From positions 248,001 through 312,000 of the forward strand of contig CAJTDN010000006.1 of NCBI GenBank assembly GCA_910574865.1: 64,000 nt of DNA. The letters run 5' to 3'. The notes under the pieces are model-generated. The model ran no database searches, had not been told where the DNA came from, and was given only the letters and a program-made list of their open reading frames with translations. A program made the translations under genes and the position numbers. Within the stretch, counting starts at the first letter, position 1. Each line of letters begins with the position of its first letter. Positions 3,695 through 63,955 of this stretch are shown one piece after another. Source of the stretch: Lachnospiraceae bacterium. GTDB taxonomy: Bacteria > Bacillota > Clostridia > Lachnospirales > Lachnospiraceae.

Positions 3695-3950
3695 TGATGC
3701 CAGGGTCAAAAGGGCATGTATGGCATGCTTGCATGCCAATACATGGCTTTGGGACCCGCAAAACACCGAAAAGTAGCCACTTTCCGCAGGAAAGTGAGCG
3801 GATTTGAGGTGTTTTAGGATTACGGAAGCACGTAGTGCGGAGTGATCCGTGGGTATCATGGGGACAAAACGGGTTTTGTCCCCAACAACATGATGATGCC
3901 AGGGTCAAAAGGGGAATGTATGGCATGCTTGCATGAAAAGGCGTCTTGAA
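3695..3950 (+). repeat. Dispersed CATGCTTGCATG repeat, copy 1
   Basis: Non-coding block made of consecutive hairpins: a CATGTATGGCATGC palindrome, a CCACTTTC/GAAAGTG stem, ACGTAGTGCGGAGTGATCCG and GGGACAAAAC/GTTTTGTCCC. The opening GATGCCAGGGTCAAAAGG recurs near 3893, so the unit is partly duplicated. Related blocks lie at 8270-8528 (opposite orientation) and 63622-63955 (two tandem units). No protein is credible here. Confidence 0.8.
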
Positions 3951-8269: not shown

Positions 8270-8528
8270 TATATCATGATGTTGGGTTCAAAACAAGTTT
8301 TGCCCCCATGATACCCACGGATTACTCCGCACTACGTGCTCTCGTTGTCTCCGCTCCGCTACGGTCGGCACTAAGCGAACGTCCACTGGACGTTCAGTGC
8401 CCTAAAACACCTCAAATCCGCTCATTTTCCTACGGAAAATGGCTACTTTTCGGTGTTTTGCGCACTTCCAAAGTCATGCTTTTCCATGCAAGCATGGAAC
8501 ACATGACCTTTTACCCTGGTATCATATC
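8270..8528 (-). repeat. Dispersed CATGCTTGCATG repeat, copy 2 (inverted)
   Basis: The same repeat family as 3695-3950 in the opposite orientation. It runs from a GTTTTGCCCCCATGATACCCACGG-like end, here split by a ~60-bp insert carrying GAACGTCCACTGGACGTTC, through CCTAAAACACCTCAAATCCG to CATGCTTTTCCATGCAAG and ACCTTTTACCCTGG. No plausible coding content. Confidence 0.75.
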
Positions 8529-8998: not shown

Positions 8999-10747
8999 AT
9001 GACAGAGGAGATTTTGAGCGTTGTAAACGGCCAGGTGTTCGCGGTCTGGTTCTTGATTGGCGCCGCGCTGGTGTTTTGGATGCAGGCGGGGTTTGCCATG
9101 GTGGAGGCGGGATTTACGAGGGCAAAAAATGCCGGGAACATTATCATGAAGAACTTGATGGATTTTTGTATCGGCACGGTGACGTTCATCCTGATAGGAT
9201 TTAGTTTGTTGCTGGGAGAGGACCTGCTGGGATTTATTGGAAAACCGGGTTTTGATATTTTCACGAATTATGCGGATTTTGACTGGTCCAACTTCGTGTT
9301 CAACCTGGTGTTTTGTGCGACGACGGCCACCATCGTTTCCGGGGCAATGGCGGAGCGGACGAAGTTTTTGTCCTACTGCGTGTATTCCGCGGTGATATCG
9401 GCGTTGATTTATCCGGTCGAGGCGCACTGGATTTGGGGCGGCGGCTGGCTGTCGCAGATGGGATTCCATGATTTTGCCGGTTCCTGCGCGATTCACATGG
9501 TGGGCGGCGTTTCCGCGCTGATCGGGGCGAAAATCCTCGGGCCGCGCATCGGGAAGTTCGTCAAGGACAAGAGTGGGAAAGTCACGAAAATCAATGCCTT
9601 TCCGGGACACAACCTCCCAATTGGCGCATTGGGCGTGTTCATCTTGTGGCTGGGCTGGTATGGGTTTAACGGGGCCGCGGCCACGAGCGTGGAGCAGTTG
9701 GGTTCCATTTTCCTGACAACCACCATCGCGCCGGCGATTGCCACGGTCACTTGCATGATTTTCACGTGGGTACGTTATGGGAAGCCGGACGTGTCCATGT
9801 GCCTCAACGCGTCGTTGGCGGGTCTCGTGGCCGTCACCGCGCCTTGCGACGTGGCGGACGCTTTGGGGGCGGCAATCATCGGCCTCGTCTCGGGCGTGCT
9901 GGTGGTGTTCGGGGTCTGGTTCTTGGACAGCGTGCTACATATTGACGATCCGGTCGGGGCGGTCGCGGTACATTGCTTAAACGGTATCTGGGGAACCGTC
10001 GCGGTGGGCTTGTTCGCGACAACCGCCGCGCCGGGAAATGACTCCCTTACGGGTTTGTTCTATGGCGGCGGATTCAAGCTCCTGGGAATCCAACTCCTGG
10101 GAGTGCTTTCCGTTGTTGCCTGGACGGCGGTGACGATCACGGTCACGTTCCTTTTGATTCGGGCGGTTTTCGGCCTGCGCGTGAGCGAGGAGGAGGAAAT
10201 TGTCGGCCTGGACGCGACGGAACACGGCCTCGCGTCCGCTTATACGGGCTTTAGCATCATGGACGTTTCCAACACGATGACGATGGACGTCAATGAAAAC
10301 ACGAACATCGGTACCAGTGATTATGTCGCGGCTTCACAGGTGCAAAGGGACGCGGCGGTGAAAGTCGTAAAGGTGCCGGTCGTGTCCGAAAGCGGTATTT
10401 ACAAGGTGGTCATCATTGCCAAACTGACCCGGTATGAGAAGTTGAAAAAGGCGATGAACGACTTGGGCGTGACCGGCATGACCGTGACGCAGGTGATGGG
10501 CTGCGGCGTGCAAAAAGGAGCGGGGGAGAAGTACCGCGGGGTCGAGATGGACGCGACATTGCTCCCGAAGGTGAAGGTCGAGGTCGTCATTGGCAGCATC
10601 CCGGTTGACGACGTAATCGAGGCCGCGAAAAAGACGCTTTACACGGGCCATATCGGAGACGGGAAGATTTTCGTTTACAATGTCGACCGCGTGGTCAAAA
10701 TCCGCACGGGCGAGGAAGACGTGGCGGCGTTGCAGGACGTGGAGTAA
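8999..10747 (+). CDS. amtB: Ammonium transporter AmtB fused to a PII signalling domain
   Basis: 582-aa fusion. Residues 1-410 are an Amt/MEP/Rh channel (about 11 membrane helices) conducting ammonium, with the pore twin-histidine pair recognisable in CAIHMVGG and VAVHCLNG. Residues ~470-575 are a complete GlnK/PII domain: start YKVVIIAKL, T-loop GCGVQKGAGEKYRGVEM, B-loop TGHIGDGKIFV. The Tyr that is uridylylated in E. coli (RGAEY) is Met here, so control must be by ATP/ADP/2-oxoglutarate binding. ATG 8999 is preferred over ATG 8990 because AGGAG (8984-8988) is 10 nt from the former and overlaps the latter. A long structured leader suggests post-transcriptional nitrogen control. Confidence 0.93.
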   Translation: MTEEILSVVNGQVFAVWFLIGAALVFWMQAGFAMVEAGFTRAKNAGNIIMKNLMDFCIGTVTFILIGFSLLLGEDLLGFIGKPGFDIFTNYADFDWSNFVFNLVFCATTATIVSGAMAERTKFLSYCVYSAVISALIYPVEAHWIWGGGWLSQMGFHDFAGSCAIHMVGGVSALIGAKILGPRIGKFVKDKSGKVTKINAFPGHNLPIGALGVFILWLGWYGFNGAAATSVEQLGSIFLTTTIAPAIATVTCMIFTWVRYGKPDVSMCLNASLAGLVAVTAPCDVADALGAAIIGLVSGVLVVFGVWFLDSVLHIDDPVGAVAVHCLNGIWGTVAVGLFATTAAPGNDSLTGLFYGGGFKLLGIQLLGVLSVVAWTAVTITVTFLLIRAVFGLRVSEEEEIVGLDATEHGLASAYTGFSIMDVSNTMTMDVNENTNIGTSDYVAASQVQRDAAVKVVKVPVVSESGIYKVVIIAKLTRYEKLKKAMNDLGVTGMTVTQVMGCGVQKGAGEKYRGVEMDATLLPKVKVEVVIGSIPVDDVIEAAKKTLYTGHIGDGKIFVYNVDRVVKIRTGEEDVAALQDVE

Positions 10748-10969
10748 GGCATGACATGGCTGGAAACCATTATGACTTATGGCGGCTAAGCCGTAAATTG
10801 TAACAATTTTAAGGTTTCTTCAGAAAGTTTTAGGAATCTTGCCGCTTGTTTCTTCTGTTTTGTCTGGTAGATTAATGGCATGGGCAATGGATGGCGTGCC
10901 GACATTTGCGTATCAGCGTTGCAAAATCGGACGAAAACGATGAAAAGACAAGTAAGCGGGGTGCAAGTG

Positions 10970-11479
10970 ATGAATTTTGAAATGTTGACGGATTATTTTC
11001 TGGAGTATGGAGCGGTTTTTATTTTCTTGATTGTGTTTTTGGAATACCTGAACCTTCCCGGGTTTCCGGCGGGGGTCATCATGCCGACGGCGGGGATATG
11101 GGCGGCGAAGGGGGAAATCAGTTTTCCGCTGGTGATGCTTTTGACCGTGGCGGCCGGGCTTCTGGGGAGCTGGATGCTGTATTTCCTCGGGAGGTGGGGC
11201 GGCGCGAAGGTGTTTGGCTGGTATTTTAAAAAATTTCCCAAGCAGAAGCCGGTCATCGAGGAGAAAATGCAAATGTTGCGGGAGAAAGGCGGCATCGGCG
11301 TTTTCGTGAGCAAGCTGCTGCCGATGGTGCGCACCATCATTTCCATTCCCGCGGGCATGGTCAAGATGAACTTCGTGAAGTATACCGTGAGCTCCATGCT
11401 GGGCGTGTTTTTATGGAACCTGGTGTTTATCGGGGCGGGATATTTCTTGGGGGAATCCGTGATAGGAATGTTGGGATGA
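10970..11479 (+). CDS. DedA family membrane protein
   Basis: DedA/SNARE-associated membrane protein of 169 aa, related to proteins implicated in lipid flipping and membrane homeostasis. The start MNFEMLTDYFLEYGAVFIFL is the normal family opening, followed by LEYLNLPGFPAG and the conserved F/GR loop FLGRWGG plus a late FVSKLLPMVRTIISIPAG. Four to five hydrophobic segments are visible. An in-frame extension to 10880 would add a non-hydrophobic tail and is not used; GGGGTG precedes ATG 10970. A bidirectional terminator follows. Function in this organism is inferred from family only. Confidence 0.82.
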   Translation: MNFEMLTDYFLEYGAVFIFLIVFLEYLNLPGFPAGVIMPTAGIWAAKGEISFPLVMLLTVAAGLLGSWMLYFLGRWGGAKVFGWYFKKFPKQKPVIEEKMQMLREKGGIGVFVSKLLPMVRTIISIPAGMVKMNFVKYTVSSMLGVFLWNLVFIGAGYFLGESVIGMLG

Positions 11480-11530
11480 GAAGGAATGCCATAACGTAAT
11501 GTCAAGACGTAATGCTGGTCATGGAAGAAA

Positions 11531-11562
11531 AGGGAGCCGTTTTCGTGGGCTCCCTCTTTCTG
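11531..11562 (+). terminator. Bidirectional terminator between dedA and deoC
   Basis: AGGGAGCC (11531) and GGCTCCCT (to 11555) form a perfect 8-bp stem with a 9-nt loop. CTTTCTGCGTTTT follows on the plus side, and on the minus side TTTTCTTCC follows. It serves two convergent genes. Confidence 0.85.
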
Positions 11563-11608
11563 CGTTTTGATTCGTTATGCCATGGTTCGCACATTTTATA
11601 CGGTTTAA

Positions 11609-12274
11609 TCACGTCGCGTCGGTTTCCGCGGCTTTTACGAGCTTGACCAGCTTGCTCGTGCCCAGCCGGTCCGCGCCGAGGCGAATCAGTTCTTCCGCGT
11701 CCTCGAAGCAAGAAATGCCTCCTGCCGCCTTGACTTTCACGTTTTTTCCGACATGGGACTTCATCAGCGCGACATCGTCGGGCGTGGCCCCGGCGTTCGA
11801 GAAGCCGGTGGAGGTCTTGACATATTCGGCCCCGGCGTTCGTGACGATTTCGCACGCCTTGATTTTTTCCTCATCCGTCAAAAGACACGTCTCGATGATG
11901 ACTTTGAGGATTTTCCCGCCGCATGCCCCGTGTACTTGGCGGATTTCGTCTTCTACCTCCCGATATCGTCTGTCCTTCAAGAAACCGATGTTGATTACCA
12001 TGTCGATTTCGTCCGCCCCGTCCATAACCGCGTTTTTCGCCTCGTAAACCTTGACCGTCGCCGCGTGGTAGCCGTTTGGAAAGCCGATGACCGTGCAAAT
12101 GGGCACCCGCCCGTCCACGTACTCGGCCGCTTGCTTCACGTATGCGGGCGGGACGCAGGCGGAGGCCGTCTTGTACGTCATCGCGTCGTCGAGAACCTGG
12201 CGGATTTCCTCCCAAGTGGCCGTCTGGGTAAGCAAGGTATGATCTACGGCTTTTAATATTTCTTTTCTTGTCAT
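11609..12274 (-). CDS. deoC: Deoxyribose-phosphate aldolase
   Basis: Class I aldolase (221 aa) cleaving 2-deoxyribose 5-phosphate to acetaldehyde and glyceraldehyde 3-phosphate in deoxynucleoside catabolism. Key sites: DHTLL at the N-terminus, GFPNGYH, the Asp of [10 protein letters not shown], the Schiff-base Lys of YVKTSTGF, and the second Lys of [11 protein letters not shown] 12274 is chosen because AAGGGG lies 9 nt upstream; a TTG three codons earlier would overlap the preceding gene. It starts 5 nt after the stop of the AIM24 gene, so the two are an operon. No nucleoside phosphorylase is adjacent. Confidence 0.95.
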
Positions 12275-12279
12275 GTCAA

Positions 12280-12960
12280 TCAACCCCTTGCCGGCATGAA
12301 TTTGAGGATTTCGTTTGCCACGGCGTTAATAGGCATCGTCTGTAGCCAGATGTGTCCCGGGCCGGTGATGACGGTGTTGAAAAGTCCCTCGCCGCCAAAG
12401 ACCATGTTTTTCAGGCCGGGTACGGACTGGATGTCCATGCTGCAAGTCGATTCGAGCGCGGCCAAATATCCGGTGTCCACGATAATCTGCTGCCCCGGTG
12501 CCAGGTCATATTCCACGATGTGCCCGTCAAACTCGACGAACGCGGTTCCCTGGCCGGACAGGCGCTGCATGATGAAGCCCTCGCCGCCAAAGAGGCCGGC
12601 TCCGATTTTTTTCTGGAAAAACACGGAGAGGTTCACGCCGATTTCGGACGCGAGAAAACCGGCCTTTTGCACGATCATGTCACGTCCCGGCTCGATGTCG
12701 AATGCCAGGATTTTTCCCGGGAAGCTGGACGCGAAAGCAATCATGCCCGCCCCGCCCATGGCGGTATATGTATTCTGGAACATGGCCTCGCCGGAAAACA
12801 TCCGCCCGAAAGCTTTTCCCAGGCCGCCGTTCGTGCCGGTCTCCATCTTCATGTTGGGGGACATCCAACTCATGGAACCCCTCTCCGTAATCATCTTTTC
12901 TCCGTTTTCCAGTTCGCAAACGACGACCGGAAGCGTCTCGCCTTTGATTTCGTATCTCAT
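12280..12960 (-). CDS. AIM24 family (TIGR00266) protein
   Basis: 226-aa protein of the AIM24/DUF124 family, a beta-rich fold of unknown biochemical role found widely in bacteria. Family features seen: [13 protein letters not shown] start, a glycine-rich middle ([14 protein letters not shown]), repeated beta-strand blocks with FGGEGF and VFGGEGLF, and the C-terminal [12 protein letters not shown]. Start chosen at 12960 because GGAAGGGAG is 7-8 nt upstream; the frame is open further upstream without sense. It sits directly before deoC in one transcription unit. The function is unknown. Confidence 0.88.
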
Positions 12961-13090
12961 AAGTAACTCCCTTCCTTTTTCATTTTTCCGGGGACAAAAT
13001 TCTGTTCGCCCGGGCATCATAATTATGGAAAAACCAGTCTTATTATAACGCGGGAAGGGAAGGCGTGCAAGTAAAATGCACATGAATTTA

Positions 13091-13119
13091 TTGACTGTCA
13101 GGAATGAAATGCGTATAAT
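13091..13119 (+). promoter_or_regulatory. Sigma-A promoter, copy A of a duplicated promoter block
   Basis: TTGACT at 13091, 17-nt spacer, TATAAT at 13114. A block of ~46 bp around it is identical except one base to 17301-17346. It reads toward the CPBP relic and tadA. Confidence 0.8.
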
Positions 13120-13121
13120 GG

Positions 13122-13409
13122 GTGGGGACGGATTATTATGTGCTCATGTTTTTGCAGGAGGCGGGGGCGGTCATCATGTTCGCACTCATGCGGCTGAGCG
13201 GCCTGGAGGGGGTGTGGCACCGCCGGGAAATCGGTTTTGGGCGGGGACTTTTGGTGGGCATGGTGCTTGCCGCCATCTATTTCCGCTGTGGTTGTATCTG
13301 GGTCACGGTGTTCCTGCACGGGGGCATAGATATCGCGGGCACGATTGTCACGGGCATCTATGTTGGTGATGCCGTTACAGTCCGCGGCCGGTTAGGCCGT
13401 GAACTGTAA
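13122..13409 (+). pseudogene. CPBP (Abi) family intramembrane protease relic
   Basis: A 95-codon frame with pieces of a CPBP membrane protease: a hydrophobic segment LQEAGAVIMFALM, a FGRGLLVGMVLAAIYF stretch, and the terminal motif GCIWVTVFLHGGIDIAG, where the conserved His of motif 3 is visible. The catalytic EExxxR motif 1 and most helices are missing; family members are normally 200-300 aa. It therefore looks like the product of an internal deletion. It lies just after a good promoter and ends in a GTTAC palindrome. Confidence 0.6.
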
Positions 13410-13410
13410 C
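13374..13410. repeat. GTTAC-ended palindrome
   Basis: GTTACAGT...ACTGTAAC inverted repeat with an inner GGCC/GGCC pair, 37 bp. Member of the GTTAC palindrome family described in the findings. Confidence 0.75.
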
Positions 13411-13479
13411 CGGGGAAATGCCGCGACATGGGGAATGCCGCGGGTGACAGGTGGAAAATGGATGGGGAGTTGTCGGACG

Positions 13480-13977
13480 ATGGAGAATGATGAAAAGTAC
13501 ATGCGGGAGGCCATCAGGCAGGCGAAAAAGGCGTACGCCCTGGACGAGGTTCCCATCGGGTGCGTGATTGTTTATGAGGGGAAGATTATCGGGCGCGGGT
13601 ACAACCGGCGCACGGTGGACAAAAGCACGCTGGCGCACGCGGAACTTCTAGCCATCCGTAAGGCGGGGAAAAAATTGGATGACTGGCGGCTCGACGGCTG
13701 CACGATGTACGTGACGCTTGAGCCTTGCCAGATGTGCGCGGGGGCCATTATCCAGGCGAGGATTAAGCGGGTAGTGGTGGGCTGCATGAACCCGAAGGCG
13801 GGGTGCGCGGGATCCATTCTGAATCTGCTCGACGTGGAACGGTTTAACCATCAGGCGGAGCTGACGACGGGGGTCTTGGAGGAAGAGTGCAGTGAGATGA
13901 TGAAACGCTTTTTCCGTGAATTGAGGGAAAGGCAGAAGAAGATGAAGGCCGCGGGGAACGCGGATTATGGAAAATAA
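13480..13977 (+). CDS. tadA: tRNA-specific adenosine deaminase
   Basis: 165-aa zinc enzyme converting the wobble adenosine-34 of tRNA-Arg(ACG) to inosine. Cytidine-deaminase fold motifs are complete: LAHAELLAI (HAE, zinc His and proton-shuttle Glu) and LEPCQMCAGA (PCxxC). The start MENDEKYMREAIRQAKKA fits the family, with GGGGAG 10 nt upstream; a longer frame to 13399 runs through the repeat and is ignored. One nucleotide after the stop codon begins a remnant of another gene (EAL tail). Confidence 0.95.
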   Translation: MENDEKYMREAIRQAKKAYALDEVPIGCVIVYEGKIIGRGYNRRTVDKSTLAHAELLAIRKAGKKLDDWRLDGCTMYVTLEPCQMCAGAIIQARIKRVVVGCMNPKAGCAGSILNLLDVERFNHQAELTTGVLEEECSEMMKRFFRELRERQKKMKAAGNADYGK

Positions 13978-13978
13978 T

Positions 13979-14041
13979 GAGGGAACGCTTTTCAACAAGC
14001 CGGTTACGATAGAGACGTTCGGAGCACGTTACATGCAGTGA
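13979..14041 (+). pseudogene. 3-prime tail of a GGDEF-EAL gene
   Basis: The last 20 codons plus stop read EGTLFNKPVTIETF and on to YMQ, matching the end of the GGDEF-EAL protein at 7521-7581 in 17 of 20 residues, with third-base differences at the DNA level. No upstream part survives. It begins one base after the tadA stop, so the remainder of a paralogous gene was deleted or replaced by the tadA block. Confidence 0.85.
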
Positions 14042-14078
14042 CGATGGAATTGCGGGCGCTGAACCGTAACGTACATTC

Positions 14079-14114
14079 GTTACAAATCACGGCCTAACCG
14101 GCCGTGATTGTAAC
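14079..14114. repeat. GTTAC-ended palindrome
   Basis: GTTACAAATCACGGCC pairs with GGCCGTGATTGTAAC (one unpaired base), 36 bp. Same family as 13374, 37478 and 59359. Confidence 0.75.
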
Positions 14115-14164
14115 GGCATCCAGCCATTTAAAATTGCCTGCGGCAATGGGCTGGATACCCTATC

Positions 14165-14225
14165 GACACCATTACTTTATCGGACGGTGGCCGTGCGGCA
14201 AGGCGCACAGCCCCGTGAACAGTAA
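14165..14225. repeat. 61-bp dispersed repeat ending in GTAAC
   Basis: ACTTTATCGGACGG followed by GGCCGTGCGGCA and CCCGTGAACAGTAAC. A close copy lies at 20865-20924 after the DUF2974 gene and a shorter one at 47803-47834. Confidence 0.7.
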
Positions 14226-14264
14226 CGCACATTCTCCTAGATTGTGTTTTCTGCAAAAAACCGC

Positions 14265-14292
14265 TTGATTTTTTTCAGTAATCCCATACAAT
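14265..14292 (+). promoter_or_regulatory. Promoter of the AAA/PD-(D/E)XK gene
   Basis: TTGATT at 14265-14270, 16-nt spacer, TACAAT at 14287-14292, followed by AAAGGAGAGGAG as ribosome binding site. Confidence 0.6.
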
Positions 14293-14313
14293 GAAAGGAG
14301 AGGAGAATCATGT

Positions 14314-16029
14314 ATGGAGGAGGTGCATGGGATGGATAATATGGCAATGAAGAAGAAACTCCCGGTGGGAATCGAAAGTTTTGAAGAAATTCGGACGGAG
14401 GGTTTTTATTATGTGGATAAGACCGCGATGATTCGGGATTTGCTTTATAATTGGGGGAAGGTGAATTTGTTTACGAGGCCGCGACGTTTTGGCAAGTCGT
14501 TGAACATGAGCATGCTTCGCGCGTTTTTTGAGATTGGTTGTGACAAGGCGTTGTTGTTCGATGGGCTGGCCATCTCAAAGGAGAAGGAATTGTGCGACAC
14601 GTATATGGGGAAATTCCCGGTCGTATCCGTCAGTTTGAAAGGCATAGACGCTGAAAATTACGAAACGGCGCGCGGCATGGCGGTAAGAGTGGTGAATGAG
14701 GAGGCAAGGAGGCATAAGTATCTTCTTGATAGTGCCCGGCTTTCCGTAGAAGAAAAGGAAATGTTTTCCCGGCTGATGAATCCGGAAATGAATGACGAGG
14801 TGCTAAGATATAGTTTGCGGGAGTTGTCGGAGGTGCTCTGGAAGCATTATGGGAAAAAGGTGATTATGCTGATTGATGAATATGACGTACCTCTGGCAAA
14901 GGCGAATGAGAATGGATATTATAAACAAATGATTTCGTTTATCCGCAGTTTGTTCGCGCAAGCACTAAAAACGAACGAGTATCTTCATTTCGCGGTATTG
15001 ACAGGTTGTTTGCGTGTGGCGAAGGAGAGCATTTTTACCGGCCTCAACAATCCGAAAATCCTTTCTATCACGACGGTTCGTTTTGATGAATATTTTGGCT
15101 TTACGGATGGCGAGGTTCGGGAATTGCTTGAGGATTATGGCTTTACGGACGCGTATGATTCGATAAAGTCCTGGTACGACGGGTATCAGTTTGGTAACGT
15201 GGAGGTTTACTGTCCTTGGGATGTCATTAATTATTGTGACGAATTGCAGGATGATGCGTCCATGGCACCGAAGGACTACTGGTCGAACACCAGTGGCAAC
15301 GACATCGTGAGGCGATTCCTTGCCAAGGCGGGTGCCGGGGTGGCGAAACGGGAAATAGAGGCTTTGGTTGAGGGAGAGACGGTGACGAAGGAGATACGCG
15401 AGGAACTGACATATAATAATCTGTATGATTCCATCGATAACATATGGAGCGTATTGTTTACCACGGGGTATTTGACGCGACGTGGCAGGCCGGATGGAAA
15501 GCGGTTTCAATTGGCCATCCCTAACATGGAAATTCGGAACATTTTCACGGAACAGATTATGGAAATGTTTAAGGCGGATACCCAAAAGGACGGGGAGACG
15601 TTGCAGGCGTTTTGCGAGGCACTGAAAACGGGGAACGCGGGCGAGGTGGAACGGTTGTTTAACGGATATTTGGAGAAAACTATCAGCATCCGTGATACGT
15701 TTGTCCGGAAACCTACGAAAGAAAACTATTATCATGGGATTTTGATTGGAATCCTTGGTTTCAAGGGCGACTGGTACGTCAAGTCCAACAAGGAGTGCGG
15801 GGATGGGTACAGTGACATCCTGGTTGAGGTTGAGAGGGAACGGATTGGCATTGTCATCGAGGTGAAATACGCCGAAGGCGAAAAATATGGCGATACATGC
15901 CGGGCGGCTTTGGAACAGATTGAGAGAGGGAAATATGCCGACGCGTTAAAGGAACATGACATGGAGACGGTTCTGAAATACGGCATCGCCTGCCATAAGA
16001 GAACATGTAAAGTGCTGCTTTCGTTATAG
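14314..16029 (+). CDS. AAA-ATPase-like/PD-(D/E)XK nuclease protein (DUF1703 group)
   Basis: 571-aa member of the large AAA-ATPase_like plus PDDEXK_9 family, common in Clostridia and Bacteroidetes. The N-terminus LPVGIESFEEI, then YYVDKT, precedes a Walker A-like RPRRFGKSLNMSML near residue 57. A Walker B-like LIDEYDVPL lies near 190. The C-terminal nuclease-like core has DILVEVERERIGIVIEVKYAEG (D...ExK) near 510. These proteins occur in many copies per genome and are suspected of roles in selfish-element or phage conflict, but activity is not established. ATG 14314 has GGAGAGGAG 9 nt upstream; ATG 14332 is also possible. It is more AT-rich than tadA before it. Confidence 0.85.
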   Translation: MEEVHGMDNMAMKKKLPVGIESFEEIRTEGFYYVDKTAMIRDLLYNWGKVNLFTRPRRFGKSLNMSMLRAFFEIGCDKALLFDGLAISKEKELCDTYMGKFPVVSVSLKGIDAENYETARGMAVRVVNEEARRHKYLLDSARLSVEEKEMFSRLMNPEMNDEVLRYSLRELSEVLWKHYGKKVIMLIDEYDVPLAKANENGYYKQMISFIRSLFAQALKTNEYLHFAVLTGCLRVAKESIFTGLNNPKILSITTVRFDEYFGFTDGEVRELLEDYGFTDAYDSIKSWYDGYQFGNVEVYCPWDVINYCDELQDDASMAPKDYWSNTSGNDIVRRFLAKAGAGVAKREIEALVEGETVTKEIREELTYNNLYDSIDNIWSVLFTTGYLTRRGRPDGKRFQLAIPNMEIRNIFTEQIMEMFKADTQKDGETLQAFCEALKTGNAGEVERLFNGYLEKTISIRDTFVRKPTKENYYHGILIGILGFKGDWYVKSNKECGDGYSDILVEVERERIGIVIEVKYAEGEKYGDTCRAALEQIERGKYADALKEHDMETVLKYGIACHKRTCKVLLSL

Positions 16030-17416: not shown

Positions 17417-17428
17417 GAAAACTTTTTA

Positions 17429-17690
17429 CGTGCATTACGCTTCGAATGGAAATTCCCAGACGTTACCCTGACAGCCAACTCAACCCAGGCACCCTCACAA
17501 CACCCGCGAGGTTCTGCTTAGTGCTGCTCCGTTCCCGACCTGACACGGTTCACAGATTCACGTCGCGTGAGACCCAAATTTTCAACATCGCTTTTCAGGG
17601 GCGGCTCTGCAAATCGCCACCCTCCGCGTAATATCACCCCTGCTATAGCGGATTGCAGGTACAAGGTACCGCTAACACCCCGGCTGCACG
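17429..17690 (-). ncRNA. ffs: Signal recognition particle RNA (large Gram-positive type, scRNA)
   Basis: About 262 nt on the minus strand. The 5-prime Alu domain shows GTACCTGCAATCCGCTATAG with AGCAGGGG, typical of Bacillus/Clostridium scRNA. The S domain helix-8 has GTGTCAGGTCGGGAACGGAG then CAGCACTAAG, the Ffh-binding motif. The two ends pair through CGTGCA/TGCACG, which fixes the approximate ends. It has its own promoter and terminator. It binds Ffh and targets nascent membrane proteins to the translocon. The Gram-positive form with Alu domain supports the Firmicute assignment. Confidence 0.95.
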
Positions 17691-17697
17691 AGTCTTT

Positions 17698-20847: not shown

Positions 20848-20864
20848 GGCGGGATGCCCGCTAG

Positions 20865-20924
20865 CACCACTACTTTATCGGACGGCGGCCGTGCGGCAGG
20901 GTGCACGGCCCGCGAACTGTAACC
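20865..20924. repeat. 60-bp dispersed repeat ending in GTAAC
   Basis: Copy of the element at 14165-14225: ACTTTATCGGACGG, GGCCGTGCGGCA, then CGCGAACTGTAAC. It lies between the DUF2974 gene and the AT-rich cassette. Confidence 0.7.
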
Positions 20925-21010
20925 AAAAAGTTTCATTTTGAACATAGGATGATATTGACTTATCGTATTCTAAATTGTATTATTAGCATGTTGGGAAGCA
21001 TGTATTGTCT

Positions 21011-21105
21011 TGTTACTATTCACAGCCGGATGAAAAGGGGCAAGCGGCTTCCTGCAAGCAAGCTTGCTCCTTTTCATCCGGCTGTGAATAGTAACACTTT
21101 TTTGA
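21011..21105. repeat. 35-bp near-perfect inverted repeat at the left edge of the AT-rich cassette
   Basis: Arms 21011-21045 and 21062-21096 begin TGTTACTATTCACAGCCG and are complementary at 34 of 35 positions (the exception can form G-U), with a 16-nt loop. CTTTTTTG follows, so on the plus strand it is also a very strong terminator. The ends are GTTAC/GTAAC, as in the smaller palindromes of the window. The methyltransferase gene starts 46 nt later. Confidence 0.9.
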
Positions 21106-21141
21106 TAAATTCTAATGAAAAAGTGTGGGCAGGAGGAAAAA

Positions 21142-22482
21142 ATGAATCTAAAAAAAGATTATAAGCAGTATTTTACTCCTGCCAAATTGGCAGAATACAT
21201 GGTAAATATGATTCCGGATGAGCAAATTGATTCCGTGATAGACTTGTCCATGGGAGAATGCGGCTTGCTGGAGGAAACAAAAAAAAGATGGGGGGCTGTC
21301 GCGTTATATGGCGCGGATATAGATGAAACATTGATTTCAAGAATACATGCGCGAAGCCCTTATATTCATACATATTTAGGTGATAGTTTGTCCTCTGACA
21401 TAGAAAGCTGGGAAGGATACAATAAAATCGTCGACGCGGGAGGATTTGATTTGGCGATTGCGAATCCACCGTTTAATTTTTATGACCAAAAAGAAGTTTG
21501 TCTGAATGGTGAAAAGCTTTCTTTGCCGATTGAAATACGTTTTCTCTTGAAATATATCGATATCGTGAAAGAGGAAGGATTTATTTGCATCATATTACCA
21601 TATGGTTTTTTGTCCTTGGACTTGTATGAAAATTTTCGTATGAAAATTTTGTCAAAAGTCACAATTATAAAAATAGTAAAAATTTTCAGGGGTTGTTTTG
21701 AAAAGATAGACGCGGATACATGTTTGGTCTTGATGAAGAAGAACAGGATGCATGAAGCAGTTGCCCAAAAGAAAATAACCATAGGATATTTGTCAGACGA
21801 GTATAAATTGATAAATAAGCATGTCGTGTCAACGGCGAGGGTAAAGAGATGGGATTTGGAATATCAACAGTTGTTGGCAAGTGAATGTTTATTTTATACT
21901 CGATTTGAAAAAGTAGCGTTGAAAAAATATATAAAAGAATGTAGAAGAGGGAAATCTATTACAAAGAATAGGGGGTTGCTTTCAGAAAAAGGAGTGCGGT
22001 TTATTCATACGACGGATGTTAAAAAACTATATATATCAAATGAATGTAAGCAATATATAAATGATTCGAAAAATATATTTAAAAATGCCGCTCTTAAAAA
22101 AAACGATGTTTTAATTGGCAGGGTCGGGCAAGGATGTATAGGAAAAATTGGAATTGTGTCAAAGAAATATCCCAAACTATTTTTTAGTGATTGCCTGTTC
22201 GCGATAGAGAGCGTGAATATTAATCCATATTATTTGACTTTGTTTCTAGCATCTGATTTTGGCCAGATGCAACTTAAGGGCATGGCGAAAGGTTCTTGCA
22301 GCAAGTATATAACCCGTGAGGATTTGCTTCGGCTTTGCGTATTAGTTCCAGATAATTGTATGCAGGAATATTTTGGGAGCAAGTATAAACTATTGTTAAG
22401 CAGGCCGGGAAGAGGGAACAAAGAGGTCTTGTTTGGTAATCTTTTGACAGAATTAAATGAAGTGATAAGGCAGAAAGGGTGA
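21142..22482 (+). CDS. N6-adenine DNA methyltransferase with fused specificity domain
   Basis: 446 aa. Residues 1-220 form an N6-adenine methyltransferase: YFTPAKLAEYMV (HsdM-like entry), an acidic SAM motif region VIDLSMGECGLLEE, GADIDE, and the catalytic NPPFNF (NPPY class). Residues ~230-446 resemble an HsdS-type target-recognition domain (FYTRFEKVALKKYIK through KNDVLIGRVGQGCIGKIGIV and GMAKGSCSKYITREDLL). It looks like a compact M-S fusion. GCAGGAGG precedes ATG 21142. It is AT-rich, leads a four-gene cassette and overlaps no R subunit. It would modify host DNA at a specific site; the restricting partner would have to be the ATPase module. Confidence 0.82.
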   Translation: MNLKKDYKQYFTPAKLAEYMVNMIPDEQIDSVIDLSMGECGLLEETKKRWGAVALYGADIDETLISRIHARSPYIHTYLGDSLSSDIESWEGYNKIVDAGGFDLAIANPPFNFYDQKEVCLNGEKLSLPIEIRFLLKYIDIVKEEGFICIILPYGFLSLDLYENFRMKILSKVTIIKIVKIFRGCFEKIDADTCLVLMKKNRMHEAVAQKKITIGYLSDEYKLINKHVVSTARVKRWDLEYQQLLASECLFYTRFEKVALKKYIKECRRGKSITKNRGLLSEKGVRFIHTTDVKKLYISNECKQYINDSKNIFKNAALKKNDVLIGRVGQGCIGKIGIVSKKYPKLFFSDCLFAIESVNINPYYLTLFLASDFGQMQLKGMAKGSCSKYITREDLLRLCVLVPDNCMQEYFGSKYKLLLSRPGRGNKEVLFGNLLTELNEVIRQKG

Positions 22483-22487
22483 TGTAA

Positions 22488-23285
22488 ATGGCATGGTCTT
22501 CCTATGCGCACTTGCCGAATGGGGAAGAAGAGTACCGAAAGATATTGTCCGAACTGAATAATGAGATGTCTGTTTCCGAAGTGGATGAAGTGATTGCCAA
22601 GGTGAAAGGTAAAGGGCATGTCTCACATCATTATCGAAGTAATTTGGCCCGTATCGGATTGTTTGACGTGCGTGACGAGAAAGTATATTTGAATTATGAT
22701 GTGTCAATGTTGAAAAGAGAAAAGCCGTATTTAAAAAAAATCTTGTCGGAGAGCTTGCTGCGTTGTAAAAAAATGGAAATTGACATTGTCAAATCAATTG
22801 TTTGGAAAAACAAAACGTATGATTTAAAAAAAGTGGTTGAACTTTTGAAAAATGAATATCCGGAATTGGAGAAAAACAATATAGTCAGGTGGATACGTCC
22901 CGTTGTCAATTTGCTGAAAATTATTGATTGTTTAGGCCTGTCAAAGGCGGAAGAAAGAAGAGGGAAGGGAGAAGGGTTAAGAGAGGGGCGTTTAGATGCG
23001 GATGGACCAGAAGTGGATAAATGTAAATGTTTTTTGCAACAGTCTTATTTGAATTTGGCGAAGGAATTCGGGAAAGTAACCGCCCTGGAGGAGATAGAGA
23101 AAGAGCTTAAAAGGATAGAGGAATCTTATGACATCGTTGACTTTTTGGAAAAATTGCTGCTGGACGGAAAGGAAAAATTCAAAATAGAATTACTGATGAT
23201 GCCTACATGGGCGACGAAAAACGAGGCTTATAAAATAAGCGGGGACTATTATACGCATTTGAGGATAAAGAGTGATTTACTATAA
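22488..23285 (+). CDS. Unknown protein of the methyltransferase-ATPase cassette
   Basis: 265 aa, not recognised. It starts 5 nt after the methyltransferase stop, with AAAGGGTG as binding site, so it is translated from the same message. The sequence is charged and helical: an N-terminal segment (SVSEVDEVIAKV, HHYRSNLARIGLFDV) reads like a winged-helix fold, and a second such unit may follow (DIVKSIVWKNKTYDLKKVVELL). A low-complexity G/R/E/D-rich stretch occurs near residues 155-175. The C-terminus has a coiled-coil-like run (LEEIEKELKRIEESYDIVDFL). A DNA-binding or adaptor subunit is a guess. Confidence 0.75.
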   Translation: MAWSSYAHLPNGEEEYRKILSELNNEMSVSEVDEVIAKVKGKGHVSHHYRSNLARIGLFDVRDEKVYLNYDVSMLKREKPYLKKILSESLLRCKKMEIDIVKSIVWKNKTYDLKKVVELLKNEYPELEKNNIVRWIRPVVNLLKIIDCLGLSKAEERRGKGEGLREGRLDADGPEVDKCKCFLQQSYLNLAKEFGKVTALEEIEKELKRIEESYDIVDFLEKLLLDGKEKFKIELLMMPTWATKNEAYKISGDYYTHLRIKSDLL

Positions 23286-23585
23286 AAGTCCCGGACAGCG
23301 GCTATGTTATGGAGGATGCTTGCATCCGCAATAACATGGACATTGGACGGGCTAACCCGTATGAACAAGTAGGGCGATAGCCCGGATTGTGAATTTGGGT
23401 GGCGATTGTGGGAGTGCGTAAGCACGGAGCAATCGACTTTTATTCCCGCGAGCAACGAGCCAAAGTCATGCTTGCATGACCTTGGCGACTGCCGCGAGGG
23501 TGCGATATCCCGCGGCTTGCTGCGGAATATTGCACTTATAGTGGTGTCGCCGTCAGGCGACATGTCAGTTTAGGGAGGAATCGGC
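23286..23585. repeat. 300-bp hairpin-rich spacer inside the cassette
   Basis: No gene. At least five hairpins in a row: ATGTTAT...ATAACAT enclosing GGATGC/GCATCC, GGGCTA/TAGCCC, GTGCGTAAGCAC, GCCAAAGTCATGC/GCATGACCTTGGC (23459-23486), and GTCGCC/GGCGAC just before the next ribosome binding site. Related to the dispersed repeats at 3.7, 8.3 and 63.6 kb. Confidence 0.75.
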
Positions 23586-25244
23586 ATGAGAAAACATATT
23601 TCTGCAAGTGAATGCAATAAGATGTTTGATGATAGATTTGATACATTGACAATGAAAGAAATAGGAATAGAATTAAAACATTTTATGACGGGGACGGCTC
23701 CTGAAAGTCCTTCTTTTTTGGTGAATCAGGAAGAGCTGAAGAAAGAGCTCGTGGAAAAGTTCCGTGTGTTTTTTGACGAAGATAAATCTCAGGGTCTGGA
23801 AATTGTTTTTTTAAAAAGTAATTACGGGAATGGAAAATCTCATTTTATAAGGATGATATATACCTTTTTAAATGAATATGAGAACGTGTTTGTGAGAAAG
23901 GTGTCCTTTAAACAAGAGGAAACGGATTTGAAAAAGATTATTCTTGAAAGTATCAGCCAGAAAAAATTAAAGGAATGTGCATGTTTTTTGGTTGACATGG
24001 CAGAAAAAGAAGCATTGTCAAGGGGGAAGGATGCCGTCATTTCTTCCATTGGCGAAAAATACTCCGTTGGCGCCAAGCTTTCTCAAATACTGTATGAAGC
24101 GGCAAGGAGTACGGATATCACCAGGCAGATTCAGGCGATGGCCATTTTGAAAGGAACTTATCTGCCTGATTATTTGAAGAACTTTGATTGCAGGAATAAA
24201 GACATGTCAGATGAATTTTTTTATGACGTAATTGAATTGCTCTCTATTTATTTGAAAGAGGCGAGGCAATACATCGTAGTAGTTCTTGATGAATATGAGC
24301 ATGTGTTTTCGTGGAAAAGCAATATGGCAAGGAAGAAGCTATATGCGGATATTAAGTGGTTTACGGAAGGAATGGATTCTTTCAGCAATCTTTTTTTTGT
24401 TTTTGGCGAGAGTGAATCGGCAGAAAGCCGAACGGAAATCAGGGACGACCCGGCATGGGTGTCGAGAAAACCGAACCTGACATGCCAGATAGCGGACATC
24501 TCTTCAGAAGGCGAGGTGGAACGGTTATTTGAGATGATTTTGAAACGCTATCAAAAATATTATTCTGTTTCTTTTGAAGAGCATAAAGATGACATATTAA
24601 AAATGGTGGGCGAAGATTCGATGGTAAAAGCGAAGACGAATTATAGGAGTTATACGCAGGCCATCATGAGGGCGTTGGATGAATTCAGAAATAATCCGTC
24701 GGGATTAAAAAGAAAGAAAGACGATGCCGATACGAATGAAAAAAATATTTCGAAGGAAAATATGACGGTAAAAGAAATTGGAGATGTGAATGACAGGATT
24801 TTAAAATGGAAGAATGCGACGTCCATTACAAAAAAGACGATGTTATGCGAAGTGTTAGAGGCAATGTTGCAAAGGGCTCATGAGGAAGTACTTTCGAAAA
24901 GCAAGAAAAAGGGGGAATATGTTACAAGGATAGGAAACGTGAGGAATTTATATTATGTTGTTTCTACGGAGAATCCCAGTTTAAAGGATTTAAAAAAGAG
25001 ATATGATACCATGGTAAAGGAACTACATGACGGGGATTCCTTGTATGTCTTGTATCCTGCCATACAAGGTACGTTGGACGTGGAGGATAGGGGAATGATG
25101 GTCTTTTATGATGAGACTACGGCAGGCAGGGCGTTTGAAGCGATTCACGATGGCGAATGTGACACCATGTATTCGTATTTGAATATTTTGAACGTAGATG
25201 AGCAATCCCCCACTTTAAGTGCGCGGAGTACTAAGCGGAGGTAA
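23586..25244 (+). CDS. BREX-like (DUF2791/BrxC-BrxD type) P-loop ATPase
   Basis: 552 aa. The N-terminus resembles the ATP-binding proteins of phage-exclusion systems: a domain naming a substrate-binding region, then the Walker A FLKSNYGNGKSHFIRM at ~82-97 and Walker B IVVVLDEYEHV near 225-235. A sensor-like stretch FFVFGESESAESR and a helical lid follow. The family call rests on the YGNGKSHF/FIRMIY style and domain order; other AAA ATPases remain possible. The start has TTAGGGAGG 8 nt upstream. It is AT-rich and separated from the previous gene by a 300-bp repeat spacer. It probably couples ATP hydrolysis to DNA sensing in the cassette. Confidence 0.6.
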   Translation: MRKHISASECNKMFDDRFDTLTMKEIGIELKHFMTGTAPESPSFLVNQEELKKELVEKFRVFFDEDKSQGLEIVFLKSNYGNGKSHFIRMIYTFLNEYENVFVRKVSFKQEETDLKKIILESISQKKLKECACFLVDMAEKEALSRGKDAVISSIGEKYSVGAKLSQILYEAARSTDITRQIQAMAILKGTYLPDYLKNFDCRNKDMSDEFFYDVIELLSIYLKEARQYIVVVLDEYEHVFSWKSNMARKKLYADIKWFTEGMDSFSNLFFVFGESESAESRTEIRDDPAWVSRKPNLTCQIADISSEGEVERLFEMILKRYQKYYSVSFEEHKDDILKMVGEDSMVKAKTNYRSYTQAIMRALDEFRNNPSGLKRKKDDADTNEKNISKENMTVKEIGDVNDRILKWKNATSITKKTMLCEVLEAMLQRAHEEVLSKSKKKGEYVTRIGNVRNLYYVVSTENPSLKDLKKRYDTMVKELHDGDSLYVLYPAIQGTLDVEDRGMMVFYDETTAGRAFEAIHDGECDTMYSYLNILNVDEQSPTLSARSTKRR

Positions 25245-25363
25245 GGGGGATGCTCGTGTCAGTGGGAGTAAAAGCTCCCACTGACAAACGGCGAAGCTGG
25301 TTGCGTTCATGAGGAAGTAGCTAAGCGGATTCCGAATGTCCGCATTACTAAAAGGAGTAATTG
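25245..25363. promoter_or_regulatory. Spacer with a strong hairpin between ATPase and last cassette gene
   Basis: GTCAGTGGGAG-TAAAAG-CTCCCACTGAC (25258-25285) is a perfect 11-bp stem. There is no U-tract, so it may be an RNA-processing or stability element rather than a terminator. AAGGAG for the next gene is at 25352. Confidence 0.6.
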
Positions 25364-26248
25364 ATGCAAAGGAAAATCGAATTACTAGAGAAAATATCAG
25401 AAAACGCTTTGTTTCATATTGATGAATTCTCATTTCAGCTGACTGTGGAAGATAAAGGGAACATGAGAAAATATTTCATGGAGTTGAAAGTGGCAGGCCA
25501 GTCTCCTTCGGACGTGAGATTTTTCTTGGAGGAGGTTGCCCCTGAATGGGAATTTCTTTTGGAGTCACCGAAGGAATTGACAGATTACATAAAAAGTTAT
25601 GAGGAAGACAACAACCCGAATGACGAGAGTTTGTTCCATGATTTGAGAACTAAATATGTTGAATTTTTGAAGAGACGTGAATCGGATTCTTTTGATGCCA
25701 CTGAAAGAATAATAATATTGGGATTTAGTGTTGTTGAAGAAAAAATCTACATGGTCTTAAAAACGTTTTCATTGAACGTGCTTTCGACGTTTTTGGAAAA
25801 GTTGAAACAATATTGCCGGGAGAACGAGATGGAGATTGTCATGTCCGAGGATGTACGATGGATAGAATTGAATCAATACGTCGTCAGGCAAAAGGAGGTG
25901 GTAAGAGGATTACAGAGCGAGGAATTTCTAAAAAGGACATTGGTGAAGAAGCTTTTTCCTAGATTTTTGAGGATTTTTAAATTCATTGACATGGATGGTT
26001 ATTTCGAGAAAGGGATTTATGACGAGGTCATGTTTCAGAAGGAGGCGTATCCGAATGGAAGCGTGAAGAAGGTTGAGATTCGTCAAGTGAGCCGGTTCTT
26101 TTCTTCATATTGGAAATATAGGCTTAGTGCAAAAGATAAAGAAATTCTGTGTTTGCATGATGAAAAACCGGATGATAAGGGGATTGAGAAATACGTATAT
26201 ACATTTAAGCCAAGTCTTTTTATAAAAGATGTTTTTGAAAATTGGTGA
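25364..26248 (+). CDS. Unknown protein, last gene of the methyltransferase-ATPase cassette
   Basis: 294 aa, not recognised by eye. ATG 25364 is preferred over TTG 25361 because AAGGAG sits 6 nt upstream. The protein is highly charged with no membrane segment. It has an N-terminal helical part (IELLEKISENALFHIDEF), a central block with alternating strands (RIIILGFSVVEEKIYMVLKT), and a C-terminal part rich in Arg, Lys and aromatic residues (FPRFLRIFKFIDMDGYF). No catalytic motif stands out. It shares the AT-rich composition of the cassette. It may be an effector or sensor; function is not assignable from sequence. Confidence 0.75.
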   Translation: MQRKIELLEKISENALFHIDEFSFQLTVEDKGNMRKYFMELKVAGQSPSDVRFFLEEVAPEWEFLLESPKELTDYIKSYEEDNNPNDESLFHDLRTKYVEFLKRRESDSFDATERIIILGFSVVEEKIYMVLKTFSLNVLSTFLEKLKQYCRENEMEIVMSEDVRWIELNQYVVRQKEVVRGLQSEEFLKRTLVKKLFPRFLRIFKFIDMDGYFEKGIYDEVMFQKEAYPNGSVKKVEIRQVSRFFSSYWKYRLSAKDKEILCLHDEKPDDKGIEKYVYTFKPSLFIKDVFENW

Positions 26249-26289
26249 AAATGAGGGGATGGGTCAAATCTGAACCAAATGCTGTTCTA

Positions 26290-26321
26290 TTTCGGCGCTG
26301 GCGCGGTGCCGAATTGTAACC
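26290..26321. repeat. GTAAC-ended palindrome at the right edge of the cassette
   Basis: CGGCGC-TGG-CGCGGTGCCG followed by AATTGTAAC. The same CGCGCTGGCGCGG core occurs at 37490-37518 and 51160-51183. Confidence 0.6.
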
Positions 26322-26356
26322 TGATTAAAAAAAGTGGTTGTATTTGTTGTGGATGG

Positions 26357-26385
26357 TTGAATTAGAGCCGCGTACATGGTATACT
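26357..26385 (+). promoter_or_regulatory. Promoter ahead of the Uma2 relic and rpiB
   Basis: TTGAAT at 26357-26362, 17-nt spacer, TATACT at 26380-26385. Confidence 0.6.
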
Positions 26386-26479
26386 TTCAGATTGGAGGAG
26401 AAATGTATTTTTGCTGAAGACGGTTGGGGAAGTCCCCGGGCGTGACAACGCCGGTGTTGGCGGTAAGGAGGAATCATTT

Positions 26480-26630
26480 ATGGCATTACCAGCAAAGCAG
26501 GTGTGACATACATTCACCGACTGCCTTGCATGGAAGGGGGACGCACGAAGTCTGCCAGAAGGGGGACGCGGCCAGGGGCGGTGTTCTGGATGGATGTTTT
26601 GTTGATTTGGGAAAGGTGTTTTCCGAATGA
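26480..26630 (+). pseudogene. Uma2-family (DUF820) nuclease relic
   Basis: After AAGGAGG, the frame MALPAKQV is followed in the next frame by a TFTDCLAWKGDAR stretch, the usual opening of a Uma2 protein. It is then joined to VLDGCFVDLGKVFSE, the usual last residues of the family. The ~150 residues between, including the PD-(D/E)XK core, are missing. The identification rests on the two ends only. Confidence 0.5.
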
Positions 26631-26704
26631 GTGAAAGGATGGGAAATCTGTATTTTATGGTGGGGAAAGGCCGGGTAAATATTTGAGTACGGAAGGAGAA
26701 GAAG

Positions 26705-27178
26705 ATGAGGATTGGAATTGGAAATGACCATACGGCATTAGAATTAAAGGCGGAAATCATCGAGTTTTTGAAGGAGAACGGCCATGAGGTGGTCGACTAC
26801 GGGACGAAGGAAGCGGGGAGTTGTGATTATCCGGTATATGGGGAAATCGTGGCGCGTGCCGTGGTGGCGGGCGAGGTGGAGCGCGGCATCCTGATTTGCG
26901 GGACGGGGCTGGGTATTTCTTTGGCGGCCAACAAGGTGAAGGGAATCCGGGCGGCCGTTTGCAGCGAGCCGTATACGGCGAAGATGTCCCGGGCGCACAA
27001 TGACTGCCAGGTACTGGCGTTCGGCGCGCGGATTGTCGGGGCGGAGCTGGCCAAGATGATCGTCGACGTGTGGCTGAACACGGAGTTCGAGGGGGGCAGG
27101 CACCAGCGGCGGGTGGACATGATAAACGCCGTCGAGGCCGAAAGCAAGTTGGCGGATCCAAGCGGAAGCGCAGGATGA
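26705..27178 (+). CDS. rpiB: Ribose-5-phosphate isomerase B
   Basis: 157-aa RpiB/LacAB family isomerase of the pentose phosphate pathway, interconverting ribose 5-phosphate and ribulose 5-phosphate. Motifs: GNDHTALELK at the N-terminus (phosphate binding), the catalytic Cys in ILICGTGLGISLAANK, and SRAHNDCQVLAFGARIVG. GGAGAAG precedes the ATG. Slightly longer than the usual ~145-150 aa because of a polar C-terminus. A sugar-specific relative (allose or galactose 6-phosphate) cannot be excluded, but no sugar operon surrounds it. A 9-bp perfect hairpin AGGAACTGT/ACAGTTCCT lies between it and glmM. Confidence 0.9.
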   Translation: MRIGIGNDHTALELKAEIIEFLKENGHEVVDYGTKEAGSCDYPVYGEIVARAVVAGEVERGILICGTGLGISLAANKVKGIRAAVCSEPYTAKMSRAHNDCQVLAFGARIVGAELAKMIVDVWLNTEFEGGRHQRRVDMINAVEAESKLADPSGSAG

Positions 27179-27388
27179 GCTAAGTGCGAGGCCGTTCTTT
27201 GAGATTAGCGAGGCCGAAAGCCGGGCTTGGCGAAAAGAACTTCCTTGAAAGCAACTGGTATTGAGCACTTAATGAGCGCAGAAAGCGCGAATTTGGCACA
27301 AGGTATTTCGCATATGATGTAAGGAACTGTTAAAGAATGAATCTTCACAGTTCCTAATCGTGAATATTAAGAAAAGAGGATGAAAAAG

Positions 27389-63621: not shown

Positions 63622-63955
63622 GATACCAGCGTCAAAAGGTCATGTGTGACATGCTTGCATGTCAGTACATGACCTTGGGACGCGCCGAACATGAGAAAGG
63701 AGCCCGGAAGGGCGGATTTCGAATGTTTGAAGGAGTGCGTGAGCGCGAAGCGCGGAGCAATCCGTAGGTATCGTGGCAAAGATGATGTTGGGGTCAAAAG
63801 GTCATGTGTGACATGCTTGCATGTCAGTACATGACCTTGGGACGCGCCGAACATGAGAAAGGAGTCCGGAAGGGCGGATTTCGAATGTTTGAAGGAGTGC
63901 GTGAGCGCGAAGCGCGGAGCAATCCGTGGGTATCGTGGCAAAGATGATGTTGGCA
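63622..63955 (+). repeat. Dispersed CATGCTTGCATG repeat, two tandem units
   Basis: Two ~165-bp units (about 63622-63790 and 63790-63955) that differ at only a few positions. Each has GTCAAAAGGTCATGTGTGAC, CATGCTTGCATG, GCGTGAGCGCGAAGCGCGGAGC, GGTATCGTGGCAAAGATGATG. A 136-codon minus-strand frame over it is judged non-coding. It separates the ABC ATPase gene from the next gene of the operon. Confidence 0.85.

Follow-up and report, generated by a model that had tools for sequence, protein, structure and literature searches.

In the LlaJI system (PMC1459862), four same-strand genes combine methylation with two further subunits, one an AAA+ NTPase and the other a PD-(D/E)XK nuclease, which restrict DNA unmarked by the partner methyltransferases; there are two 5-methylcytosine (5mC) methyltransferases, and the McrB-like GTPase is itself the specificity subunit. 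Passages of a survey of systems related to bacteriophage exclusion (BREX) tie BrxD, a standalone ATPase whose role is given as unknown, to Type-2 BREX and its helicase, and describe DUF499-centered BREX-Related (BR/Hma) sets, restriction-modification (R-M)-like assemblies with an N6 methyltransferase (DUF1156), an ORC/Cdc6-type AAA+ ATPase (DUF499), and a restriction endonuclease domain, part of a Swi2/Snf2 helicase-nuclease (PMC12839542). Here we describe a cassette of four same-strand open reading frames (ORFs), g1 to g4, located between a Mbeg1-like gene and rpiB in a 64,000-nt stretch of a Lachnospiraceae genome, referred to below as the window. The sequence comparisons favor, on balance, the view that the cassette family is a rare four-gene ATP-dependent R-M-like system and that the window copy, in which the C-terminal domain of g4 is deleted, likely methylates DNA without cutting it. 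No description of the four-gene set was recognized in the open-licence PMC literature searched, and the passages of the BREX-related survey available to us (PMC12839542) do not describe it.

The first gene, g1 (21142 to 22482, + strand, as are the other three), encodes a 446-amino-acid (aa) protein in which an N6-adenine DNA methyltransferase with an NPPF motif is fused to one HsdS-like target-recognition domain (methyltransferase-specificity, M-S). A longer g1 frame opens at 21115, and the g1 starts of the relatives correspond to 21142. The protein matches Pfam PF02384 (N6_Mtase, E value 6.3e-16) and the PADLOC type I specificity models, the best being Specificity_I (E 3.8e-18, residues 235 to 418). 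Its identity to seven relatives is 49 to 72%, and the recognition half is less conserved than the catalytic half (mean pairwise identity of 0.50 versus 0.62 among eight sequences). The second gene, g2 (22488 to 23285), starts 5 nt after g1 and encodes a conserved 265-aa protein. The third, g3 (23586 to 25244), encodes a 552-aa BrxD-like AAA+ ATPase, and the fourth, g4 (25364 to 26248; the ORF listing begins at a TTG at 25361), encodes 294 aa. In PADLOC, none of g2, g3, and g4 was matched significantly. The GC content of the four genes is 0.36 to 0.39 compared to 0.53 to 0.60 in four flanking genes, and their GC content at third codon positions (GC3), 0.37 to 0.44, lies between that of seven relative loci (0.22 to 0.30) and that of four flanking host genes (0.70 to 0.78).

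By its profile matches, g3 belongs to the BrxC/D ATPase group and is BrxD-like rather than BrxC-like. The window protein scores 24.6 bits on Pfam PF10923 (BrxC_BrxD), above the curated cutoff of 22.2, and that of the relative L010 scores 25.4 bits; hhalign of g3 with an alignment of PF10923 proteins gave a probability of 98.1% (E 6.7e-14, 297 columns). It is called BrxD-like because the 1178-aa BrxC of locus L008 aligned with it only in the Walker A region (38% probability) and because the best PADLOC match across six g3 members was BrxD (E 0.0024, in one member). Two results count against this assignment: the L006 g3 falls just short of the PF10923 cutoff, at 21.5 bits, and a genome-wide PF10923 scan (E ≤ 0.001) did not list the window g3. 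The Walker A and B motifs, GNGKS and DEYEH, are intact in the window copy. For g2, identity to seven relatives is 42 to 61%, and about 24 residues around positions 152 to 172 of the window protein form an insertion absent from the relatives. No Pfam or PADLOC family was found for it. In an AlphaFold2 model (predicted local distance difference test [pLDDT] of 82, predicted template modeling score [pTM] of 0.55), the N-terminal part is arranged as helix-helix-helix-strand-strand, and the g2 profile weakly matched the MarR-type regulator HpaR in the PDB (E 0.011). These hints suggest that g2 is probably a winged-helix DNA-binding protein, and a candidate adaptor.

Compared to the described systems, the cassette shares with Type 2 BREX a BrxD-like ATPase and an N6 methyltransferase, and g2 could play a BrxA-like part. 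However, BrxC, BrxB, PglZ, PglW, and BrxHI were not recognized in the insert carrying the cassette (20848 to 26310): g3 is 552 aa rather than the approximately 1,200 aa of the BrxC/PglY ATPase, and none of the four insert genes matched PglZ, the rest of the genome not having been searched for it. Direct hhalign of g2 with one BrxA-like L008 protein and of g4 with one BrxB-like L008 protein gave no match, both L008 genes being named by their position beside BrxC. BREX was therefore rejected. The BR/Hma sets have a similar combination of parts, but no DUF499, DUF1156, or helicase was found among g1 to g4 (Pfam, E ≤ 1), and g1 differs from their methyltransferase in being an M-S fusion. LlaJI differs in its 5mC enzymes and GTPase, whereas the cassette has one N6-type M-S enzyme, an ATPase of the BrxC/D type that is BrxD-like, and, in addition, the 265-aa g2 protein. 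Finally, g1 resembles type I R-M and MADS in joining an N6 methyltransferase to an HsdS-like domain. Type I R-M was rejected, there being no HsdR-type translocase match among g1 to g4. The two halves of g1 matched mad2 of PADLOC and MAD5 of NCBIfam (E 3.9e-16 and 8.8e-14, respectively), but MADS was also rejected, since the scores were 46.1 bits for MAD2 and 51.2 bits for MAD5 against NCBIfam cutoffs of 720 and 400 bits. A sequence-only reading of this stretch had described four same-strand genes richer in AT than their flanks, an N6-adenine methyltransferase fused to an HsdS-like domain, a 265-aa gene 5 nt after it, and a BREX-like P-loop ATPase with no canonical BrxC or PglZ in the cassette. 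All of this agrees with the ORF list, base composition, and profile results, and the ATPase falls inside the BrxC/D group rather than outside it, the outcome that would have told against that reading. That reading did not include the repeat between g2 and g3 or the internal deletion of g4, both described below.

The same four-gene order was found at eight distinct loci besides the window, and no locus that breaks the order was found. Four of these loci are complete (L010, L011, L014, and L015/L006), and four are cut by a contig end (L012/L007, L013, L016, and L046) and keep the order as far as each reaches. Copies of one locus were merged; L009/L020/L047, which are one contig nearly identical to L010, were counted with it. 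Five of the eight come from records with Lachnospiraceae in their titles, a sixth (L015) falls within the window's family, and the remaining two are from a Lutispora metagenome-assembled genome (MAG) and a genome from another family of the class. Spacing in the relatives is tight, with gaps of −20 to 17 nt. The four genes thus travel together, and the second outcome that would have told against the sequence-only reading, their occurring apart, was not observed.

The family is rare. A g3 search of 299 genomes of the family returned four, namely, the window genome, G278, G170, and G217, of which G217 (L008) was rejected as a cassette member because it encodes an ordinary 1178-aa BrxC. Further searches added G572 (392 genomes of the order, with two other weak matches), G638 (12 of the genus), and G1306 (391 of the class), and none besides the window was found in 398 genomes of the phylum. 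Thus, at most two genomes besides the window were found in each sampling of 299 to 398 genomes; the weak matches G096 and G312 (E 6e-4 and 8e-4) were left out of this count. A contig scan with the g2 alignment returned eight loci, and a first genome-contig scan with g3 alone gave no match. Plasmids and viral contigs gave no g2, g3, or g4 match, phages gave no g2 or g3 match, and nothing significant was found in PHROGs. Nearly identical cassettes, L009/L047 and L010/L048, occur in genomes assigned to different families, which reflects either transfer in the recent past or the wrong binning of a 5.3-kb contig in a MAG.

The window copy stands apart in g4. The full-length protein is 445 to 452 aa in all five distinct relatives with a complete g4 compared to 294 aa in the window, where it consists of the N-terminal domain (about 288 aa) of the approximately 450-aa protein followed by its last 8 residues. 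In a blastn alignment, window position 26220 aligns to two L010 positions that are 468 nt apart; that is, 156 codons were lost in frame, and the last eight residues were kept (IKDVFENW in the window, IKDIFENW in L010). With the five relative g4 proteins as tblastn queries against window positions 25001 to 27000, matches above background were confined to the N-terminal domain and the final residues, with no nuclease remnant downstream, and at E ≤ 0.001 no g4-like or nuclease-region homologue was found elsewhere in the genome. Because the window branches with L010, a grouping that was the topology used for branch lengths and is consistent with the pairwise identities, a loss in the window lineage is the simpler explanation, compared to repeated gain.

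The deleted region carries the motifs WFEDF, FNFF, REID, and IAxECKKT, which are invariant in the five full-length relatives. In these proteins, the motif D lies 17 residues before the E of ExK, a spacing that we take to fit a PD-(D/E)XK active site; the window g4 has no D...ExK motif, its region being deleted. Sub-threshold Pfam matches of g4 include DUF234 (E 0.0024), RE_BsaWI (0.033), and UPF0102 (0.086), all three presumably PD-(D/E)XK families, and also DUF4143. From these features, g4 of the relatives probably carries a C-terminal PD-(D/E)XK-like nuclease domain. The window copy is most likely modification-only because this nuclease-like domain is deleted. As a separate observation, an Uma2-family (PF05685) gene remnant lies at 26480 to 26704, with a premature stop codon and some 425 nt deleted; the gene is intact in the sister genomes L049 and L050, and the remnant is a second broken nuclease-family gene, only a few hundred bases away from the shortened g4.

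The cassette was inserted at an otherwise empty site. In the two sister genomes, the radical-SAM gene, Mbeg1, rpiB, and pgm occur in the same order without the cassette; therefore, it was inserted, as about 5.46 kb (20848 to 26310) replacing 30 to 86 nt. Six sister regions were compared, of which four have no Mbeg1 beside rpiB and are uninformative on the empty site. The listed ORFs of the insert include no integrase or transposase gene. In G638, a genome of the same genus, the cassette is intact and has different neighbors. Horizontal transfer probably brought in the window cassette, and the in-frame loss of the g4 nuclease domain would have followed, in the order of events that we infer.

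Both the g2/g3 and the g3/g4 gaps are enlarged. The 300-nt gap between g2 and g3, compared to gaps of −20 to 17 nt in the relatives, holds a repeat (23276 to 23573, + strand) carrying the Rfam RF01699 Clostridiales-1 RNA (23283 to 23442, 116.5 bits); this unit of about 298 nt has 47 matches in its own genome, five of them near full length including itself, and folds far better than shuffled sequences (z of −9.1). Between g3 and g4, which in the relatives overlap by 17 nt at four of the five loci measured and are 2 nt apart at the fifth, there is a repeat-like insert (25245 to 25360) with three matches in its own genome including itself. Rfam accounts for the g2/g3 insert only and not for the other intergenic inserts. 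Both repeats probably landed after the cassette was inserted, splitting the operon. Five Clostridiales-1 RNA copies lie in the window as a whole, at 3695 to 3858, 8309 to 8524, 23283 to 23442, 63621 to 63773, and 63783 to 63935.

The rates of change differ between the two halves of the cassette. With L011, L014, and L015 as outgroups, the branch lengths for the window and L010, respectively, were 0.255 and 0.205 for g1, 0.360 and 0.319 for g2, 0.447 and 0.167 for g3, and 0.447 and 0.235 for g4. The corresponding ratios of 1.24, 1.13, 2.7, and 1.9 mean that the rate of evolution in the window was roughly double that in L010 for g3 and g4, but not for g1 and g2. A site-count (Fisher) test of g3 plus g4 versus g1 plus g2 gave p = 0.005 with the nearest outgroup, L011. 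These comparisons lend modest support to a relaxed constraint on the presumed restriction arm (g3 plus g4) in the window lineage.

From the predicted parts, a mechanism can be proposed. The g1 enzyme would methylate adenine at the recognition sites of the host, marking self; g2 would bind DNA and couple recognition to the ATPase; g3, as an ORC/Cdc6-type AAA+ ATPase, would assemble on unmodified DNA and license g4; and g4 would cut by means of its C-terminal PD-(D/E)XK domain. In the window strain, the cutting step would be missing following the loss of this domain. Such a mechanism would resemble those of LlaJI and the BR/Hma sets, although the cassette belongs to neither group. A more specific version, which we offer tentatively and at somewhat less than even chances, is a distinct kind of ATP-dependent R-M in which a small, helicase-free BrxD-like ORC/Cdc6 ATPase loads a separate PD-(D/E)XK nuclease at sites left unmodified by the M-S enzyme, the two being linked by a winged-helix adaptor. 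The window copy would then be a case in which the cutting domain was removed naturally and in frame, turning a restriction system into an epigenetic one, the rest persisting. If a BrxD-like ATPase does work with only a methyltransferase, an adaptor, and a nuclease, the cassette would be a small, tractable model for the role of this ATPase. The window copy would also be a natural comparison, as a cassette minus its presumed cutting domain separates modification from restriction.

Several observations weigh against the loss of a nuclease as the explanation of the window copy. First, g4 has no significant profile match to any nuclease family, and PDB profile searches with g4 or its C-terminal domain returned no nuclease. 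Second, unrelated families reach similar or better E values for the same region of g4 (UvsY, 0.017; D5_N, 0.014; Vpu, 0.025), and its best PADLOC match is Cas10 (E 0.018). Third, the Fisher test was not significant with L014 (0.21) or L015 (0.24) as the outgroup. Finally, none of the four ORFs in the window has been interrupted, and the shortened system could therefore be in use.

This last point leads to the alternative that fares best, although we consider it unlikely: the shortened cassette would still be a working defense, blocking phage in a BREX-like manner through the ATPase and the N-terminal part of g4, or using a nuclease encoded elsewhere. The open frames and the in-frame deletion speak for it, g3 retains its Walker A and Walker B motifs, and the intermediate GC3 suggests a long residence without gene loss. 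A possible external nuclease is encoded at 14314 to 16029, about 5 kb upstream of the insert, by a gene whose AAA-ATPase_like (PF09820) product ends in a PDDEXK_9 domain; however, this PF09820/PF08011 gene family has no shown link to the cassette. The domain is kept in all five full-length relatives, the window branch shows faster change in g3 and g4, and the operon is split by repeats, all of which argue against this alternative. The sequence-only reading had proposed a reduced phage-exclusion system whose two unknown proteins were its restricting and sensing parts. The four-gene set with a BrxC/D-group ATPase stands, and one of the two unknowns, g4, is the probable restricting part in the relatives; this does not hold for the window copy, which, with the g4 domain deleted, is not best described as a working system.

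A second alternative, which we judge improbable, is that the C-terminal domain of g4 is a toxic or abortive effector, for instance, an RNase or another host-acting nuclease, with which the cassette kills infected cells. The domain is called solely from its motif, and a domain toxic to the cell would readily be lost by deletion, as in the window. However, the motif is of the ExK type with a D 17 residues upstream, and the co-encoded sequence-specific M-S methyltransferase points to discrimination of self from non-self DNA. That the deletion arose in assembly, or is confined to the sequenced isolate of a species with an intact system, is very unlikely: it is known from one genome of the species, and the internal deletion in the neighboring Uma2 gene might mark an unusual region, but the site lies inside a 337-kb contig of the 5.33-Mb, 82-contig source assembly, the number of nucleotides lost is exactly divisible by three and the retained C-terminal residues match the relatives, and Uma2 carries, independently of its deletion, a premature stop.

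Defense or mobile-element genes adjoin the cassette at four of the five loci whose flanks were tested. HEC-01A/B genes lie downstream in L010, and a type III restriction gene lies upstream in L013. The L014 cassette is preceded by genes for two methyltransferases and a ResIII protein and followed by one for a phage integrase. In L006, a PDC-S31 gene and a TnsA-like gene lie downstream, whereas the neighbors in L011 are housekeeping genes. The TnsA-like gene of L006, the [Clostridium] polysaccharolyticum locus, begins a stretch (9928 to 14869) adjoining the cassette in which it is followed by ORFs resembling TnsB, TnsC, and TniQ, only TnsA having been tested. This suggests that the cassette of this species can travel as Tn7-like cargo.

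Other features of the window were recorded as well. Upstream of g1 are an inverted repeat with 35-nt arms (21011 to 21096) and a promoter-like site (20955 to 20983, + strand) with 10 of 12 consensus matches; the latter is a consensus match only, as the 21 promoter-like sites found are no excess over chance (mean of 14.3 and standard deviation of 4.5 in shuffled sequences). Between rpiB and pgm, a stretch at about 27138 to 27295 has dozens of copies in its own and related genomes of the genus and belongs to an interspersed repeat family. A bacterial large signal recognition particle RNA (RF01854) is encoded at 17428 to 17691 on the minus strand.

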